A stretch of DNA of 64,000 nucleotides, taken from an uncultured Hellea sp. (lineage in GTDB: Bacteria; Pseudomonadota; Alphaproteobacteria; Caulobacterales; Maricaulaceae). How positions within the stretch are numbered: the stretch's first letter is position 1; every line of letters starts with the position of its first letter. Below are positions 51,642 through 58,796 of this stretch, one piece after another. Where the stretch lies: contig CALLMD010000006.1 of assembly GCA_938007935.1 (NCBI GenBank), positions 57,156 to 121,155 on the forward strand, given 5' to 3'. Made by a program: the position numbers and the translations under genes. Under the pieces are notes generated by a model. That model had not been told where the DNA came from. It saw nothing but the letters and a program-made list of their open reading frames with translations, and did no database searches.

Positions 51642-53024
51642 TTAATCGTCTCGACCGTTCGCGCCCAACCCTAAAGATTTGAGTTTACGATGCAAGGCCG
51701 AACGCTCCATTCCGACAAAGCTCGCTGTACGGGAAATATTACCGCCAAAGCGTTCAATTTGAGCCGACAGATATTCACGTTCAAAATGCTCCCTTGCATC
51801 CCTAAGCGGCATGGCGATGACCTTCTCATTTTCATTTGCGCCCGCTGCCTTGCGAACAACCGACACCTCTGGCGGCAGGGTTTCTAGCGTAATCGGTTGA
51901 GATGGCTCCCCCGTGGCCAATATCAATAAACGCTCTACATTATTACGTAGCTGACGTACATTTCCAGGCCAATCATGAGCCTGTAGAGCTGCCATTGCGT
52001 CGTCTCCAATTTTACGCGCCGGAAGGCCTGTTGAAGCCGCAAGTTGGCTAATAAAATGCTCGACGAGTTCAGGAATATCTTCACGCCGCCCCGTCAAAGC
52101 CGGCGCTTCTAGCGGCATGACATTGAGACGATGAAACAAATCCTCTCGAAAGCGGCCAAGATCAACATCTTTGGCCAGGTCACGTGATGTGGAGGTAATC
52201 ACTCTGACATCAACTTGAACATCGTCATGACCCCCAATGCGGTGGAAACGCTGCTCAACAAGGAGGCGCAGTAATTTGCCTTGCGTCTCCAGCGGCATAT
52301 CGGCAACTTCATCCAGATAAAGTGTCCCATTATGTGCGCGTTCCAATAATCCTACCTTGGCTGTTGTCCCTTCATCATCTTCGATGCCAAAAAGTTCTTC
52401 TTCAACACGTTCAGGCACCATGGAGGCGGCATTGACAGCTTTAAAAGGCCCCTGTGCCCGTCCAGAACTCCCATGCAGAAGACGCGCAATTAATTCTTTA
52501 CCAGAGCCTGAAGGTCCCGTGATTAGAACTCGGCTATTTGTAGGCGCGATTTTTTCTATTTTTTGACGCAATTGAATAATTTGTGGTGAGGTCCCAACGA
52601 GCTTATCATCCGAAGGCGCTTTGCCTTTAAGCTCCTCATTTTCTTGCCTAAGCCGCGAATTTTCTAAGGCGCGACTGACAGTGACAAGCAACTTGTCAGC
52701 TTTGAAGGGTTTCACAATATAATCATAGGCTCCCTTACGAATAGCGGAGACGGCAGTTTCAACAGTGCCATGACCGCTAATGACAATAACGGGCAAGTTT
52801 GGATGAATAGATTTGAGCTTATCAAGAAGCTCGATTCCATCCATTGAGCTTCCTTTGAGCCAAACATCAAGCACCATAAGGGAAGGTTTTCTGGCTTTAA
52901 CGGCTTCTAGCGCCCCATCACTTGTTGCTGATTGGCGAACCTCATATCCTTCATCAGATAATATCCCTGCTACCATCTCGCGGATATCATCTTCGTCTTC
53001 GACAATAAGTACATCATATTTCAT
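51642..53024 (-). CDS. ntrX: Response regulator NtrX (lacks GAFTGA)
   Basis: 460 aa: receiver domain with EDEDD and phospho-Asp in LMVLDVWLKGSSMDG, AAA+ domain with Walker A TGPSGSGKE and Walker B LYLDEVADM, and a Fis-type HTH at the end (NISRTASFVGMERSALHRKL). At the place of the sigma-54 contact loop it reads ELFGIEDDEGTTAKVG, not GAFTGA, as in many alphaproteobacterial NtrX. So it probably regulates without classical sigma-54 activation. Coupled to ntrY by a four-base overlap. Confidence 0.93.
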   Translation of the reverse strand: MKYDVLIVEDEDDIREMVAGILSDEGYEVRQSATSDGALEAVKARKPSLMVLDVWLKGSSMDGIELLDKLKSIHPNLPVIVISGHGTVETAVSAIRKGAYDYIVKPFKADKLLVTVSRALENSRLRQENEELKGKAPSDDKLVGTSPQIIQLRQKIEKIAPTNSRVLITGPSGSGKELIARLLHGSSGRAQGPFKAVNAASMVPERVEEELFGIEDDEGTTAKVGLLERAHNGTLYLDEVADMPLETQGKLLRLLVEQRFHRIGGHDDVQVDVRVITSTSRDLAKDVDLGRFREDLFHRLNVMPLEAPALTGRREDIPELVEHFISQLAASTGLPARKIGDDAMAALQAHDWPGNVRQLRNNVERLLILATGEPSQPITLETLPPEVSVVRKAAGANENEKVIAMPLRDAREHFEREYLSAQIERFGGNISRTASFVGMERSALHRKLKSLGLGANGRDD

Positions 53025-55303
53025 GAGTGTTCCTCACTTAGTGGATCGATTTTCTTAGTGATTATTAAATTAGGATCAAAGCTATCGACATCACCTCCGC
53101 GCGGAAGTACGAGCTCAATAACAGCGCCCTGTTCCCCGTCATCGCGCTCATGAAGCGTTAACTTACCACCGTGATCTGCTGCGATACGCATAACAATCGC
53201 AAGCCCAAGCCCCGTACCACTATCGCGAGTCGTCACATAGGGTTCTAAAAGTCGTTCTTTATCAGGGACAGGCCATCCCATTCCATTATCCGAAATCCGA
53301 ATTTTTATTTTATTTTCAAAGATCGAGAGACGTGTTCTAATCAAGCCATCATGCTCGCCTCTGCCAAGTTCCGCGATGCGGCGAAGAACGGACTCAGAAG
53401 CATTTTTATAAATATTCGTCAGGGCCTGATTAATCAGACGCCCATCACACCGAACCATGAGCTCACCTCGGGTCTCGTCGTTAAATTCAAATTCGATATC
53501 GGGAAAGGCCACACCTTGCGCAAATAATGTATCCTGAATTAACTTGCGCAGAGGCGCAGATTCAAAATTTGGCGCAGGCATTCGGGCAAAGGCAGAAAAT
53601 TCATTCACCATTTGCTCCAAGGATTCAACTTGACGAATAATCGTTTGCGTACAGTTTTGGAAAACGTCAGGATCGGTTTTTATTTCTTTTGAATATTTAC
53701 GAAGAAGACGCTCTGCTGAAAGCTGAATGGGTGTCAGCGGATTTTTAATCTCATGCGCAATACGGCGCGCCACTTCACGCCAGGCAGAATGCCTCTGAGC
53801 AGAGACAAGCCGTGTCATATCATCAAATGTCAGAACCCAGCCCGTATCATTGCGCACACCCTGATAGGCTGACACCCGAAGATCAAAATTTCGTACACCG
53901 TTTTCTGTCTTGAGATTTACCTGATCTTCAGCCGTGGCTAAAATGCTCTCTCTTGCCTTTTTAAAGGCGGGCGAAAACTCGCTCAACACATCATCAATGG
54001 GATATCCAAGCAATTCTCTTTCATTCAGCCCAAGTAATAATCCGGCAGAATCGTTCATAAGGGTGATACGGCCAGTTTGCGTCAAACCAATTACGCCTGC
54101 CCGTACGCCAGAAAGCACCGCTTCCGAGAATTGTCGGCGCTGCTCGGAAACATCATGCTCACGCACTAATTCATCGCGCTGAGAATTTAATTGACTGGTC
54201 ATCCTGTTAAAGGCGCTACCAAGGTCAGACATTTCTCCCCAGTCTTTACCAACATCAACGCGGGCCGTCATATCCCCGGCTCGGATACGCTCCGCCGCGT
54301 TTATCAGCCGACCAAGGGGGTCAATAATGCGGTTGGCAACACCCAACCCCAGCCAAATAGCCGCAAATAAGATAAGCAAAGCCGTTTGAATAAAAGTCAG
54401 TAAAAATATGCGGCCCATCAGCGCCTGACTATCGGCAAATTTATCAATCGCGCTCGTCGCGCTCGCTATCCCTGTCAAGCTAGACAGGACGGGGCTTTCA
54501 GACTGCAATAGCTGACCTACATATAAATAGGCATCATCGTAATTTTCGAGCTGCGTAACTGCGATGAGATAATCTAAATCGTCACGTCTCTGGAATGCAA
54601 TTTCACCTGCCTCCAATCCTTCAAAAACACCCTGACGCGGTATCTCAAAAAGCGGCGCGGCCGGGCTTTCAACGCGTGTTAAAACATAGCCATTTTTTCG
54701 CACAATATAAACGGCATCCAAATCTTGAACCCGCGACATAATTTGTAAGTCCGCCGTATAAGAAATGCGAGAATTCAACCCACTGGGGCGGCGATTAAGC
54801 TCTGTTTTTACGGTCCTGACAGCGCGGCCAAGTTCCGACATTTCCTGCTCGACATAATCTCCCAAAATTGAGCGTGCAGATTCAATATTACTGCGCACAT
54901 TAGACCCAAAAAGATCATTAATATTTCGGCTAATGAGCGTTGTCGAAAAAGCGCCCACAATGACCGCAGGCGTAAGGGCGGCCAGACTAAAAATAAGAAC
55001 AAAGCGACGATGTAAAAGAGGCGCGGATTGCCGCGAAGATTTAGCAAAAAGAACTGACCAGGTTCTATAGCCCAAATAGCCGCCTAAAAAGGCAATAATA
55101 ACGAGATTAAATAGAAGTATAGAATAAGCCGCCGAAGAGCGTTCCGGGTTGCCAGATAAGGAAAACAAAGTTCCTATAACGGTCAGAGCAATAGCGGCAG
55201 TAAATGCTATTCCAAAGCCCGCAGAACGAACAATCTCAGGCGCGCGGCGTAACCGCGGCAGGTTTTGCGCATCAGCGAGTAAAATTGGCTTTTGCTGGTT
55301 CAT
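53021..55303 (-). CDS. ntrY: Sensor histidine kinase NtrY
   Basis: A 760-aa membrane kinase. N-terminal helices flank a large periplasmic/outer part, then HAMP (RIIDPLGRLINAAERIRAGDM), PAS (GLTQTGRITLMNDSAGLLLG), HisKA with phospho-His in RRIAHEIKNPLTPIQLSAERL, and HATPase_c with SDNGMGWPVP and TRDSGTGLGLAIVMRI. Partner of NtrX, coupled by ATGA. Linked to nitrogen and redox/oxygen sensing in other Alphaproteobacteria. Confidence 0.94.
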   Translation of the reverse strand: MNQQKPILLADAQNLPRLRRAPEIVRSAGFGIAFTAAIALTVIGTLFSLSGNPERSSAAYSILLFNLVIIAFLGGYLGYRTWSVLFAKSSRQSAPLLHRRFVLIFSLAALTPAVIVGAFSTTLISRNINDLFGSNVRSNIESARSILGDYVEQEMSELGRAVRTVKTELNRRPSGLNSRISYTADLQIMSRVQDLDAVYIVRKNGYVLTRVESPAAPLFEIPRQGVFEGLEAGEIAFQRRDDLDYLIAVTQLENYDDAYLYVGQLLQSESPVLSSLTGIASATSAIDKFADSQALMGRIFLLTFIQTALLILFAAIWLGLGVANRIIDPLGRLINAAERIRAGDMTARVDVGKDWGEMSDLGSAFNRMTSQLNSQRDELVREHDVSEQRRQFSEAVLSGVRAGVIGLTQTGRITLMNDSAGLLLGLNERELLGYPIDDVLSEFSPAFKKARESILATAEDQVNLKTENGVRNFDLRVSAYQGVRNDTGWVLTFDDMTRLVSAQRHSAWREVARRIAHEIKNPLTPIQLSAERLLRKYSKEIKTDPDVFQNCTQTIIRQVESLEQMVNEFSAFARMPAPNFESAPLRKLIQDTLFAQGVAFPDIEFEFNDETRGELMVRCDGRLINQALTNIYKNASESVLRRIAELGRGEHDGLIRTRLSIFENKIKIRISDNGMGWPVPDKERLLEPYVTTRDSGTGLGLAIVMRIAADHGGKLTLHERDDGEQGAVIELVLPRGGDVDSFDPNLIITKKIDPLSEEHS

Positions 55304-55393: not shown

Positions 55394-56707
55394 TTAGGAA
55401 ATGTCCAAATCCTTCATACGTGTGCGTAACGTATTTCGGTGAATTCCCATTTTATCAGCAGCCTTTGCGCGGTTTCCACCTGTAATCCTGAGCGCCTCGA
55501 CAATTAAGGGGCGTTCAATCCAGCCTAAGGCGGTCTGGTAATGCGTATCTGTTCCCTCAACTTCATCCGAGTTAAGTAATTGCCGACAAGCGAGTTCAAT
55601 TTGTGTTTCGAGCTTCGCATCATCCTTATGCGGTTTTCCAGACAGAATATCTTTAGAGAATTCCTGCAAAACCATATCTGCCGTTATGACATCATCTGAA
55701 TAAAGCACGGCTAAGCGTCTGACGAGATTTTCAAGCTCACGCACATTTCCAGCCCAATTATGACGATGAAGAATATCAAGCGCTTCTGTCTCAAATCGGC
55801 GGCTATTTGAAGATGAGGTGTTAGATAAAAAACTTTCCGCCAGTTCATATATATCTCGGTCACGTTCAGATAATGGGGGTATCCGGATTTCAGCTACATT
55901 TATTCGAAATAAGAGATCATCGCGAAACTTTCCCTCATCAGATAGCCGTCTAAGGTCTTTGCGGGTCGCCGATAAAACACGCGGCCTGTCAGCGGCATGT
56001 ATGCGTTCAGACTCGGTCATTACCGCCAAGAGACGTTCTTGTTGTTGCATTGAAAGCTCAGCAATTTCATCAATATAAATATCGCCGCCATTGACTTTTT
56101 GTAGAGTCAGTGAAGTATTTTCAAAATCAGTTGTACGCAGAAAAGGGCGGTCTTTACGCATGCCACCATCATGAATAAGCCGCGCCACCAAATCTTTTCC
56201 TGTTCCAACAGCCCCTTGAATAAGGACAGGTAAATCCCCCGAAGCAAAACGGGACACGGCGCGGTAGACGGGCTGCATCGCCGGGCTTCGGCCAATCATG
56301 GGGAGCTTGCCAAGTTCGGCGCTTACTTTGTTTCGGCGTGGATTTACGCTTTGCCCGGCACGCGCCACGGCTTGTGTCACATCATCCAGATCAAAAGGTT
56401 TGGGCACATACTCAAAGACTTTATGGCGTCCAGATTTAAGCGCCGTATTCACTGTGTTATTTGCGCTGATGATAATCACAGGCATTTTAGGCCGCGCGGC
56501 AGCCAGATCAGGAAGCCGTTCAAAGACCTCGCGCCCCCCCATCATAACATCGGTTAGAACAATATCGCCCTGTCCCGCTTCAGCCCATTTCAATAACGTA
56601 TCCGCATTGTCAGTGGCTTTGACACTATGCCCAGCACGCGAGAGCGCTTTGGATAAAACAAGGCGAACACTATCATCATCATCGGCTAACAGGACTTCAT
56701 ATTTCAT
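55394..56707 (-). CDS. ntrC: Nitrogen regulator NtrC with deleted GAFTGA loop
   Basis: 437 aa, shorter than the usual 470-480. Receiver: LADDDD, phospho-Asp53 in VLTDVMM, Lys in PKPFDL. AAA+ domain: Walker A GAVGTGKD (165-172), Walker B GGDIYIDEIAEL (Asp213-Glu214). Between them only about 42 residues remain, and the ELFG...GAFTGA loop is missing. The Arg finger region (FRDDLLFRINVAEIRIPPL) and the Fis-like HTH (NRAKAADKMGIHRNTLRTRM) are present. Loss of the loop should prevent sigma-54 activation, as known for Rhodobacter capsulatus NtrC. Coupled to ntrB (ATGA). Confidence 0.92.
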   Translation of the reverse strand: MKYEVLLADDDDSVRLVLSKALSRAGHSVKATDNADTLLKWAEAGQGDIVLTDVMMGGREVFERLPDLAAARPKMPVIIISANNTVNTALKSGRHKVFEYVPKPFDLDDVTQAVARAGQSVNPRRNKVSAELGKLPMIGRSPAMQPVYRAVSRFASGDLPVLIQGAVGTGKDLVARLIHDGGMRKDRPFLRTTDFENTSLTLQKVNGGDIYIDEIAELSMQQQERLLAVMTESERIHAADRPRVLSATRKDLRRLSDEGKFRDDLLFRINVAEIRIPPLSERDRDIYELAESFLSNTSSSNSRRFETEALDILHRHNWAGNVRELENLVRRLAVLYSDDVITADMVLQEFSKDILSGKPHKDDAKLETQIELACRQLLNSDEVEGTDTHYQTALGWIERPLIVEALRITGGNRAKAADKMGIHRNTLRTRMKDLDIS

Positions 56708-57756
56708 GATAATTCTCCGTCATTAGGAATCGGCAAAAGCAGTGAAAATTTTGTGCGGCCCGGACGCGAGCTCACCTCGACAAGGCCGCCATGCGCGCTG
56801 GCAACTTTGGACACAAGCGCAAGGCCCAAGCCTTGGCCTTCAGGTTTATTTGTCACAAAGGGCTGGAAGAGCTGTTCTTTAATAACCTCATCAACGCCGG
56901 GACCATTATCGATAATTCTAATTTCTATCGGAAGATGCTGGCTTTTTTCCGAAGCTCTTAATTTAGACACGCCGCTCCTAAAGCGTGTTTCCAAACTAAT
57001 CTCGCCCGTCCCTGACACAGCTTCTGCGGCGTTTTTGATAATGTTTAAAATCGCCTGCATGAGCGTATCTGCATCGCCTTTAGCGTGAGGCAATGAGGGG
57101 TCGTAACGTTCAGTAAAAACAAGCTCGGGATTAGCAGATTGAATAATGCGGCGCGCGCGGCGAAGTATTTCATGAATATTGACGCGGTCTACATTATCGG
57201 GGTCTTGATCGCCCAATGTTTCCATACGGTCCGCCAAGCGCCGAATACGGTCAATCTCCGAGCTAATTAAATCAAGAAGACTTCGCCCTTCTTCACTTTC
57301 CACATCATCACGCAAGAGCTGGGCCGCGCCTTTAATACCAGCCAGCGGATTTTTAAGCTCATGGGCAATCATTCGGCCCATGCCAGACACTAATTGCCCC
57401 CCGACCCGACTTTGTCGCGGCTCTGAGCGCGTAAACCACAGACTAAGCCCAATTCCATTATCCGATGGAAAAGCCATCAGATGACAGAGCTCTTCCTCTT
57501 TGCCTTCGCGGTTGATAGGGCAATCACGCATAGTCAGGGGCGAATGGGCGGCCTTGGATTTAGCAATTATTTGCTGCGCGTCCGCATCGACTTGAAACAG
57601 CTCCCACGGAGTCTTACCGCTCAAGCGGCGAATAGATTTACCCGTCCATTCCTGCGCGGCTAGGTTAGCCCAGCTGATAGTTTCAGTTTCAGGCTCAATC
57701 AAAAAGAGCGGGAAAGGCCAGTCTTCGGACAGAGATGTCGGCATTAATTCGCTCAT
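56704..57756 (-). CDS. ntrB: Nitrogen sensor kinase NtrB
   Basis: A 350-aa cytoplasmic kinase, no membrane helix. N-terminal PAS ([20 protein letters not shown]), HisKA with phospho-His in [22 protein letters not shown] and HATPase_c with [13 protein letters not shown] and [17 protein letters not shown]. Expected to be controlled by PII protein. Overlaps dusB and ntrC by four bases each, giving a dusB-ntrB-ntrC operon. Confidence 0.94.
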
Positions 57757-58751
57757 GCCGCTAGCTCCGCAATATCAACGCTGTAGATATCAGCCAAAGT
57801 CGCGATGACTTCTTCTGGGTCTTCGGAGCGGGAAACAATTGATCTGACATCGGCTTCATTAACCAATCCCAAATCCTCGACATAGCCAACCAGATGTTTG
57901 CGCGCGATGCGAATACCTTTGCCCTCGCCATAAAAGCTTAGCAAATCACGGTAATGGGCAATCGCGACTTTGCCCCTAACTGGGCGCGGTAATTCAGGCG
58001 GCACGGGCAAGCCGTCTACCGCGGCTATAATTTCACGAAGCTTCCACGGCGCGCCAATAAGGCCGCGCCCCACCATAACCCCGTCTGCGCCTGATTGCGT
58101 CATCGCCTCTAATGCGCTGGCGGGGTCATTAATATCGCCGTTAACAAAGACGGGAATAGAGACCGCCTCTTTCACCGCTTTCACAGCGGCCCAATCCGCC
58201 TCCCCTGTGTAAAACTGATTGCGCGTACGGCCATGAACAACAAGCATTTGCACCCCCGCCGCTTCGGCGAGCCGTCCAAGCTCTGGCGCGTTTAGACAAT
58301 CAAAATCCCAACCGAGGCGCATTTTAAGCGTGACTGGCACATCCACCGCGCCGATAGTCGCTTCAATTAATTCCAAAGCGTGGTCGAGATTTCGCATTAG
58401 CGCCGAGCCTGACAGCCCAGAGGTGACCTTGCGCGCGGGGCAGCCCATATTGATATCGACTATCGCCGCGCCCGCCTCTTGGGAGAGTTTGGCCCCTTCG
58501 GCCATCCATTTCGCTTCGCGTCCGACGAGCTGTATGACGAGCGGCTCTATCTCGCCGCCGCCTGCCGCTTTGGCGACAATATCGGCATGGCCCTTGGCGA
58601 GAAATTCACTCGCTACCATCTCGGAGACCACAAGGCCGGGTTTGAACCTCTGCAATATCCGGCGGAACGGTAAATCCGTAATGCCAGATAAAGGCGCGAC
58701 AAGGACGCGCGAGGACAATTCATGCTTGCCGATTTTGGGCATAGGGTTCAT
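57753..58751 (-). CDS. dusB: tRNA-dihydrouridine synthase B (NifR3)
   Basis: About 332 aa, an FMN TIM-barrel enzyme reducing uridine in the tRNA D loop. [17 protein letters not shown], the catalytic Cys in [28 protein letters not shown] and [10 protein letters not shown] are family marks. The start at 58751 is preferred: GAGG lies six bases upstream, and the track start 12 codons earlier gives an odd N-terminus. First gene of the dusB-ntrBC unit, as in R. capsulatus nifR3-ntrB-ntrC; divergent from ispDF, 45 bp apart. Confidence 0.93.
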
Positions 58752-58796
58752 GTTGAGCCTCATAGAGGGCGAAATCCCTTTGCACAATATTTCATC

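Follow-up and report, generated by a model that had tools for sequence, protein, structure and literature searches.

The ntrC gene of an uncultured Hellea species encodes an NtrC in which the GAFTGA loop is absent, which raises the question of which RNA polymerase this regulator serves and what its ATPase is then for. The gene lies in a window of 64,000 nucleotides (the whole stretch of DNA that was analysed), where the gene order is dusB-ntrB-ntrC-ntrY-ntrX:

57753..58787, minus strand: dusB
56704..57756, minus strand: ntrB, histidine kinase, overlapping the start of ntrC
55394..56707, minus strand: ntrC, 437 aa, REC-AAA+-Fis HTH, GAFTGA loop absent
53021..55303, minus strand: ntrY
51642..53024, minus strand: ntrX, also without GAFTGA (ELFGIEDDEGTTAKVG)

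The ntrC reading frame is uninterrupted and carries the domains Response_reg, Sigma54_activat, AAA lid and HTH_8; Pfam Sigma54_activat (the sigma-54 interaction domain) is matched by two split pieces only, which flank a gap. By its architecture and its adjacency to ntrB in the dusB-ntrBC-ntrYX locus the protein is NtrC, and both locus and tree keep it distinct from NtrX. Its closest named relatives are those of Hellea species (83% identity with H. balneolensis), a genus placed in Robiginitomaculaceae by NCBI ranks and belonging with Caulobacterales. The NtrX of the window (51642-53024) is without GAFTGA but retains ELFG; absence of GAFTGA from Caulobacter NtrX is already published (PMC10274813). 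Within NtrC, we located the following features:

56549..56551, minus strand: receiver phosphoacceptor Asp53, the same residue in every group compared
56195..56215, minus strand: Walker A GAVGTGK, residues 165-171
56090..56143, minus strand: deletion scar, residues 189-206, in place of the L1 with ELFGHEKGAFTGA of GAFTGA-type NtrC; 23 residues shorter
56066..56080, minus strand: Walker B IYIDE, residues 210-214
55904..55924, minus strand: arginine fingers R262 and R268 (FRDDLLFR)
55739..55741, minus strand: sensor II Arg323 (GNVREL)
55406..55483, minus strand: helix-turn-helix, residues 409-434, whose RNTL motif also occurs in GAFTGA-type NtrC

The original prediction had put the spacing from Walker A to Walker B at about 42 residues. 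It is exactly 42 (K171 to D213), against 65 from the Walker Lys to the Walker Asp in all 43 GAFTGA-bearing alphaproteobacterial NtrCs. Thus 23 residues are missing and, as had been claimed, the whole ELFG...GAFTGA loop is gone, so that the protein does not carry the GAFTGA L1 of a sigma-54-dependent bEBP. It retains the Walker A, Walker B, arginine fingers and sensor II of that class, together with the phosphosite triad Asp, Ser/Thr, Lys and the HTH RNTL. The further claim that receiver, ATPase motifs and HTH remain extends to the relatives: the receiver Asp/Ser/Lys, Walker A Lys, Walker B Asp-Glu, both arginine fingers, sensor II Arg and RNTL are invariant in 26/26 Hellea-type rows. The 42-residue spacing was found in every one of the 26 rows checked, hence the deletion is no sequencing error. 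An AlphaFold2 model of the window NtrC, computed with 21 relatives, was too poor for use (mean pLDDT 55, pTM 0.26). Could ntrC nevertheless be decaying, an early pseudogene? In neighbouring genera the locus has lost either both ntrB and ntrC (L119, L120) or just ntrB, but the full-length reading frame, the invariance of phosphosite, ATPase and HTH in 26 genomes and a low dN/dS make this extremely improbable.

The comparison covered 119 related genomes, with a further 50 NtrC loci taken from other Alphaproteobacteria. No Caulobacterales relative that was sampled has GAFTGA. In Caulobacteraceae-type rows the spacing is mostly 57, in agreement with the deletion of eight residues published for Caulobacter (PMC10274813); this Caulobacter type of deletion, with ELFG retained, is not the pattern of the window NtrC. 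A quick NtrC tree with several long branches, from which the loop columns were left out, sets Caulobacterales apart from all other rows with an SH-aLRT of 100, including two Rhodobacterales-like rows (L173/L174) whose spacing is 47. This separate branch and the spacing of 42 versus 47 indicate that the Hellea deletion arose inside Caulobacterales and not jointly with Rhodobacterales. The alignment of related genera that had been proposed therefore places the deletion within this order, as a loss common to the 26 Hellea-type rows. Read from the aligned sequences, the order of loss is that GAFTGA was already missing in the Caulobacterales relatives sampled and that the rest of the loop was then lost in the Hellea clade. 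GAFTGA is also missing in scattered rows (L172, L178, L181, L188, L190), which were picked for low similarity, so that the frequency of loss among them carries no meaning.

The original prediction had likened dusB-ntrB-ntrC to the order in R. capsulatus. The order itself was confirmed; it is general across Alphaproteobacteria, GAFTGA-bearing genomes included, and is therefore no evidence of kinship with R. capsulatus. The tree and the spacing, through L173/L174, also speak against kinship. The likeness to R. capsulatus lies in mechanism and not in descent: as quoted in PMC10274813, R. capsulatus NtrC shares the large L1 deletion, the retained ATPase motifs and the REC-AAA+-HTH architecture, whereas its deletion is a separate one, as judged on the two Rhodobacterales-like rows (47 residues, outside the Caulobacterales branch) and not on the R. 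capsulatus sequence itself. Caulobacter crescentus NtrC has the same order and locus, has likewise lost GAFTGA (North et al. 2023; PMC10274813) and keeps the phosphosite and Walker motifs, but eight L1 residues are missing there and ELFG is kept, in contrast to 23 missing residues and no ELFG in the window NtrC.

To locate the sigma-54 element we scanned upstream of glnB, the first gene of glnBA and expected main target of NtrC, for -24/-12 sequences with GG and GC fixed and at most three or at most two mismatches. At the looser threshold, 20 of 23 GAFTGA-bearing genomes had the element (1.5 expected by chance) versus 1 of 25 Hellea-type genomes (0.75 by chance). At the stricter one, in genomes matched to their NtrC row, it was found in 17/20 GAFTGA-bearing versus 0/43 GAFTGA-lacking genomes, GAFTGA and the sigma-54 promoter being phylogenetically clumped, so that shared descent leaves a single well-supported independent contrast, or four if the best tree is taken as it stands. 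At sequence level, then, L1 is wholly deleted, the phosphosite, ATPase site and DNA reader are kept, and glnBA has no -24/-12 element.

The genome of the window has rpoN and two GAFTGA/GSFTGA bEBPs, and rpoN is present in 113/119 relatives. In two genomes of the same genus, G001 (97% complete) and G002 (92%), neither profile nor protein search found rpoN, in assemblies fragmented enough for a gap to be possible in principle. Their only bEBPs are NtrC and NtrX, and their NtrCs are intact and under purifying selection (dN/dS 0.048). NtrC exists there without rpoN, with which a sigma-54-dependent bEBP would be expected to co-occur. Since relatives without sigma-54 still keep NtrC, that of the window very probably works with ordinary RNA polymerase. 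One could argue that it still acts through sigma-54 polymerase, through a different surface or by forming mixed oligomers with a partner that carries GAFTGA. The rpoN and the two GAFTGA-type bEBPs of its genome speak for this, as do DNA-binding mutants of the GAFTGA-less Caulobacter NtrC, in which sigma-54-dependent mRNAs rise (PMC12421884); but the two same-genus genomes keep NtrC with neither rpoN nor a GAFTGA-type partner, and none of the 43 GAFTGA-lacking genomes has the element at glnB. We consider such residual dependence very unlikely, and independence of the window NtrC from sigma-54 very probable. Of the checks named in the original prediction, rpoN in the genome itself speaks against a bypass and the lack of a -24/-12 element at glnB in GAFTGA-lacking genomes speaks for it; the bypass very probably holds, at least for glnBA.

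What takes the place of the sigma-54 element? Hellea-type glnB leaders have almost nothing in common beyond a box and a palindrome. The box, usually CTCGACTC, lies 56-98 bp upstream of the glnB start codon. These 8 bp are nearly invariant among otherwise dissimilar leaders (L192-L216) and form the best conserved glnB element. The palindrome, 17 bp of the known NtrC kind TGCAC-N7-GTGCA with at most 3/10 mismatches, starts 62-64 bp upstream of the box in 17/23 Hellea-type leaders, nearly always at 62 or 63 (chance 1.1% per leader). One further leader (L201) has the same spacing with the box CTAGACTC, which a stricter scan misplaces. The leaders of the rpoN-less G001 and G002 (L199, L200) keep the box and good palindromes (AGCATAAAAAAGGTGCA and AGCATAAAAAAAGTGCA); that of the window has a weak one (AGTCCAAAAAACAGGCA, 5/10 mismatches). 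In GAFTGA-bearing genomes the best palindromes stand at scattered distances from the -24 element. The fixed spacing from palindrome to box fits contact activation of ordinary polymerase, which needs a fixed spacing as remote looping to sigma-54 would not. We take the box to resemble the -35 of alphaproteobacterial housekeeping promoters with one T to C change; it may be a -35 element or the binding site of another factor. No -10 element could be placed in the glnB leaders, so the promoter at CTCGACTC is a putative one; neither an E. coli-type sigma-70 promoter upstream of glnB nor an Rfam element in the glnB leader was found. A genome-wide search with the palindrome gave 32 sites, and 19 in a reversed-pattern control; this noise is too high to define a regulon.

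In the mechanism that we propose, NtrB would phosphorylate Asp53 of NtrC under nitrogen limitation; NtrC would then oligomerise in an ATP-dependent manner on the palindrome TGCAY-N7-RTGCA upstream of the promoter-like CTCGACTC box, the palindrome being held 62-63 bp upstream of the box, start to start. Bound there, it would bring the housekeeping sigma-70 polymerase to glnBA through contact, with no ATP-driven remodelling of sigma-54 involved. Both the activation through sigma-70 and the part played by ATP are what we infer here for the Hellea-type NtrC. That the window NtrC is a sigma-70 activator of glnBA is probable; the full model, in which this true NtrC of Hellea type has departed from sigma-54 and contacts sigma-70, we hold likely with marginally less assurance. 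The GAFTGA-less NtrCs of R. capsulatus and Caulobacter, which are reported to act at sigma-70 promoters (PMC10274813), provide a precedent. On another reading NtrC chiefly represses, or regulates processes other than this one, and glnBA is driven by another factor that binds the box. Against this stand the direct activation of glnBA by Caulobacter NtrC (PMC10274813) and, in most of the family, the constant distance between palindrome and box. That reading, which we find rather improbable, draws on the Caulobacter NtrC repressing as well as activating (PMC10274813), on the weak palindrome of the window and on the box itself, the best conserved glnB element, with no resolvable -10.

Sister genera of the same family retain the phosphoacceptor Asp and the HTH RNT, and comparison of the rows indicates that their ATPase is dead. 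In one group the Walker A Lys is Arg in 15/15 rows and the Walker B Asp-Glu is Arg-Arg (the Glu in 14/15); in a second, Walker B Asp-Glu is Leu-Arg in 6/6; in a third, its Glu is Arg in 5/5. The first arginine finger is mostly lost in these genera. Their NtrCs are under purifying selection, with dN/dS of 0.04-0.16 (several dS values are near saturation). Such maintenance of phosphosite and HTH favours the idea that the ATPase is irrelevant, NtrC being a plain phospho-switched DNA binder whose ATPase residues merely hold the fold. In the Hellea clade, however, all ATPase residues are invariant in 26/26 rows though the intervening loop is gone; Caulobacter strains with the K178A and D235A substitutions in NtrC fail to grow on ammonium (PMC10274813); and R. 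capsulatus NtrC without GAFTGA is reported to work with sigma-70 polymerase and to need ATP binding (Bowman and Kranz 1998, quoted in PMC10274813). We therefore regard an irrelevant ATPase as unlikely, and lean slightly towards ATP binding being needed by the window NtrC.

A more tentative reading, which we put forward as a possibility, is that the NtrC of this one family runs in a series, with an AAA+ machine at one end and a simple transcription factor at the other: a trimmed loop; no loop but an ATPase still in place, in the Hellea clade; no Walker B Glu; a wholly dead ATPase; no ntrB or ntrBC. ATP binding and hydrolysis in the Hellea clade might then be uncoupled from sigma-54 remodelling and serve only the oligomer state or a reading of cell energy at a sigma-70 promoter of fixed helical phasing. 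The ATPase-dead orthologues are rows L096-L118 (genera g5, g10, g14, g15 and others). In genus g7 (L091-L095, L115), ntrB is absent from a dusB-ntrC-ntrYX locus that still has ntrC, and in all six rows the first arginine finger and one acidic residue of the receiver are lost. L119 and L120 (genera g4 and g8; two loci checked) have neither ntrB nor ntrC, and ntrYX comes straight after dusB.

That an NtrC without GAFTGA can act with sigma-70 is known from published work on R. capsulatus and Caulobacter (PMC10274813). Our literature search, with most subscription journals outside it, found no report of full loop loss with an intact ATPase, of sisters with a dead ATPase, of rpoN-free genomes keeping NtrC or of a matched loss of the promoter element. 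VpsR, HupR, TyrR and DhaR likewise have an AAA+ bEBP fold diverted from sigma-54 and no working GAFTGA (PMC3162934), but they are not NtrC orthologues and have other signals and domains. Alphaproteobacterial NtrX, from the same operon (Brucella structure 5m7n), is also REC-AAA+-HTH without GAFTGA; it differs in keeping ELFG and most of L1 and in having NtrY as its kinase. The window NtrC shows a regulator's way out of its sigma factor, in which the sigma-54 loop and the sigma-54 promoter of the target are missing together and signal input and DNA reading stay. The family offers a natural set of proteins (ATPase intact, ATPase dead, sigma-54 lost) for asking what an AAA+ ATPase does without sigma-54. 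As the Pfam 'sigma-54 interaction domain' is here unable to interact in the known way, automatic predictions of sigma-54 regulons for Hellea-type bacteria would be wrong.

Several further observations concern these genomes. G001 and G002 are streamlined, Hellea-like genomes of 1.8 Mb, seemingly without rpoN and all GAFTGA-type activators. One PII protein was found in the window's genome, the GlnB of glnBA (L151, contig C1), as in most other family members; with a single PII protein, the NtrC regulon seems to have no glnK-amtB branch. The same genome encodes a PspF-like activator (L306:5379-6401, contig C31) that has lost GAFTGA (FGETFMDGRDDTNGRF) and the Walker B Glu (FLDNIE); its gene adjoins pspA (L306:4167-4859) and a pspC-like gene, and GAFTGA is absent too from its readable relatives (L307, L308, L309, L296). 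A -24/-12 scan of this genome gave 271 matches versus 176 in the control, a mild excess only. Its sole exact YTGGCACGNNNNTTGCW match (L152) lies shortly upstream of a gene for a secreted-looking protein, and sigma-54 may serve mainly surface functions in this bacterium.
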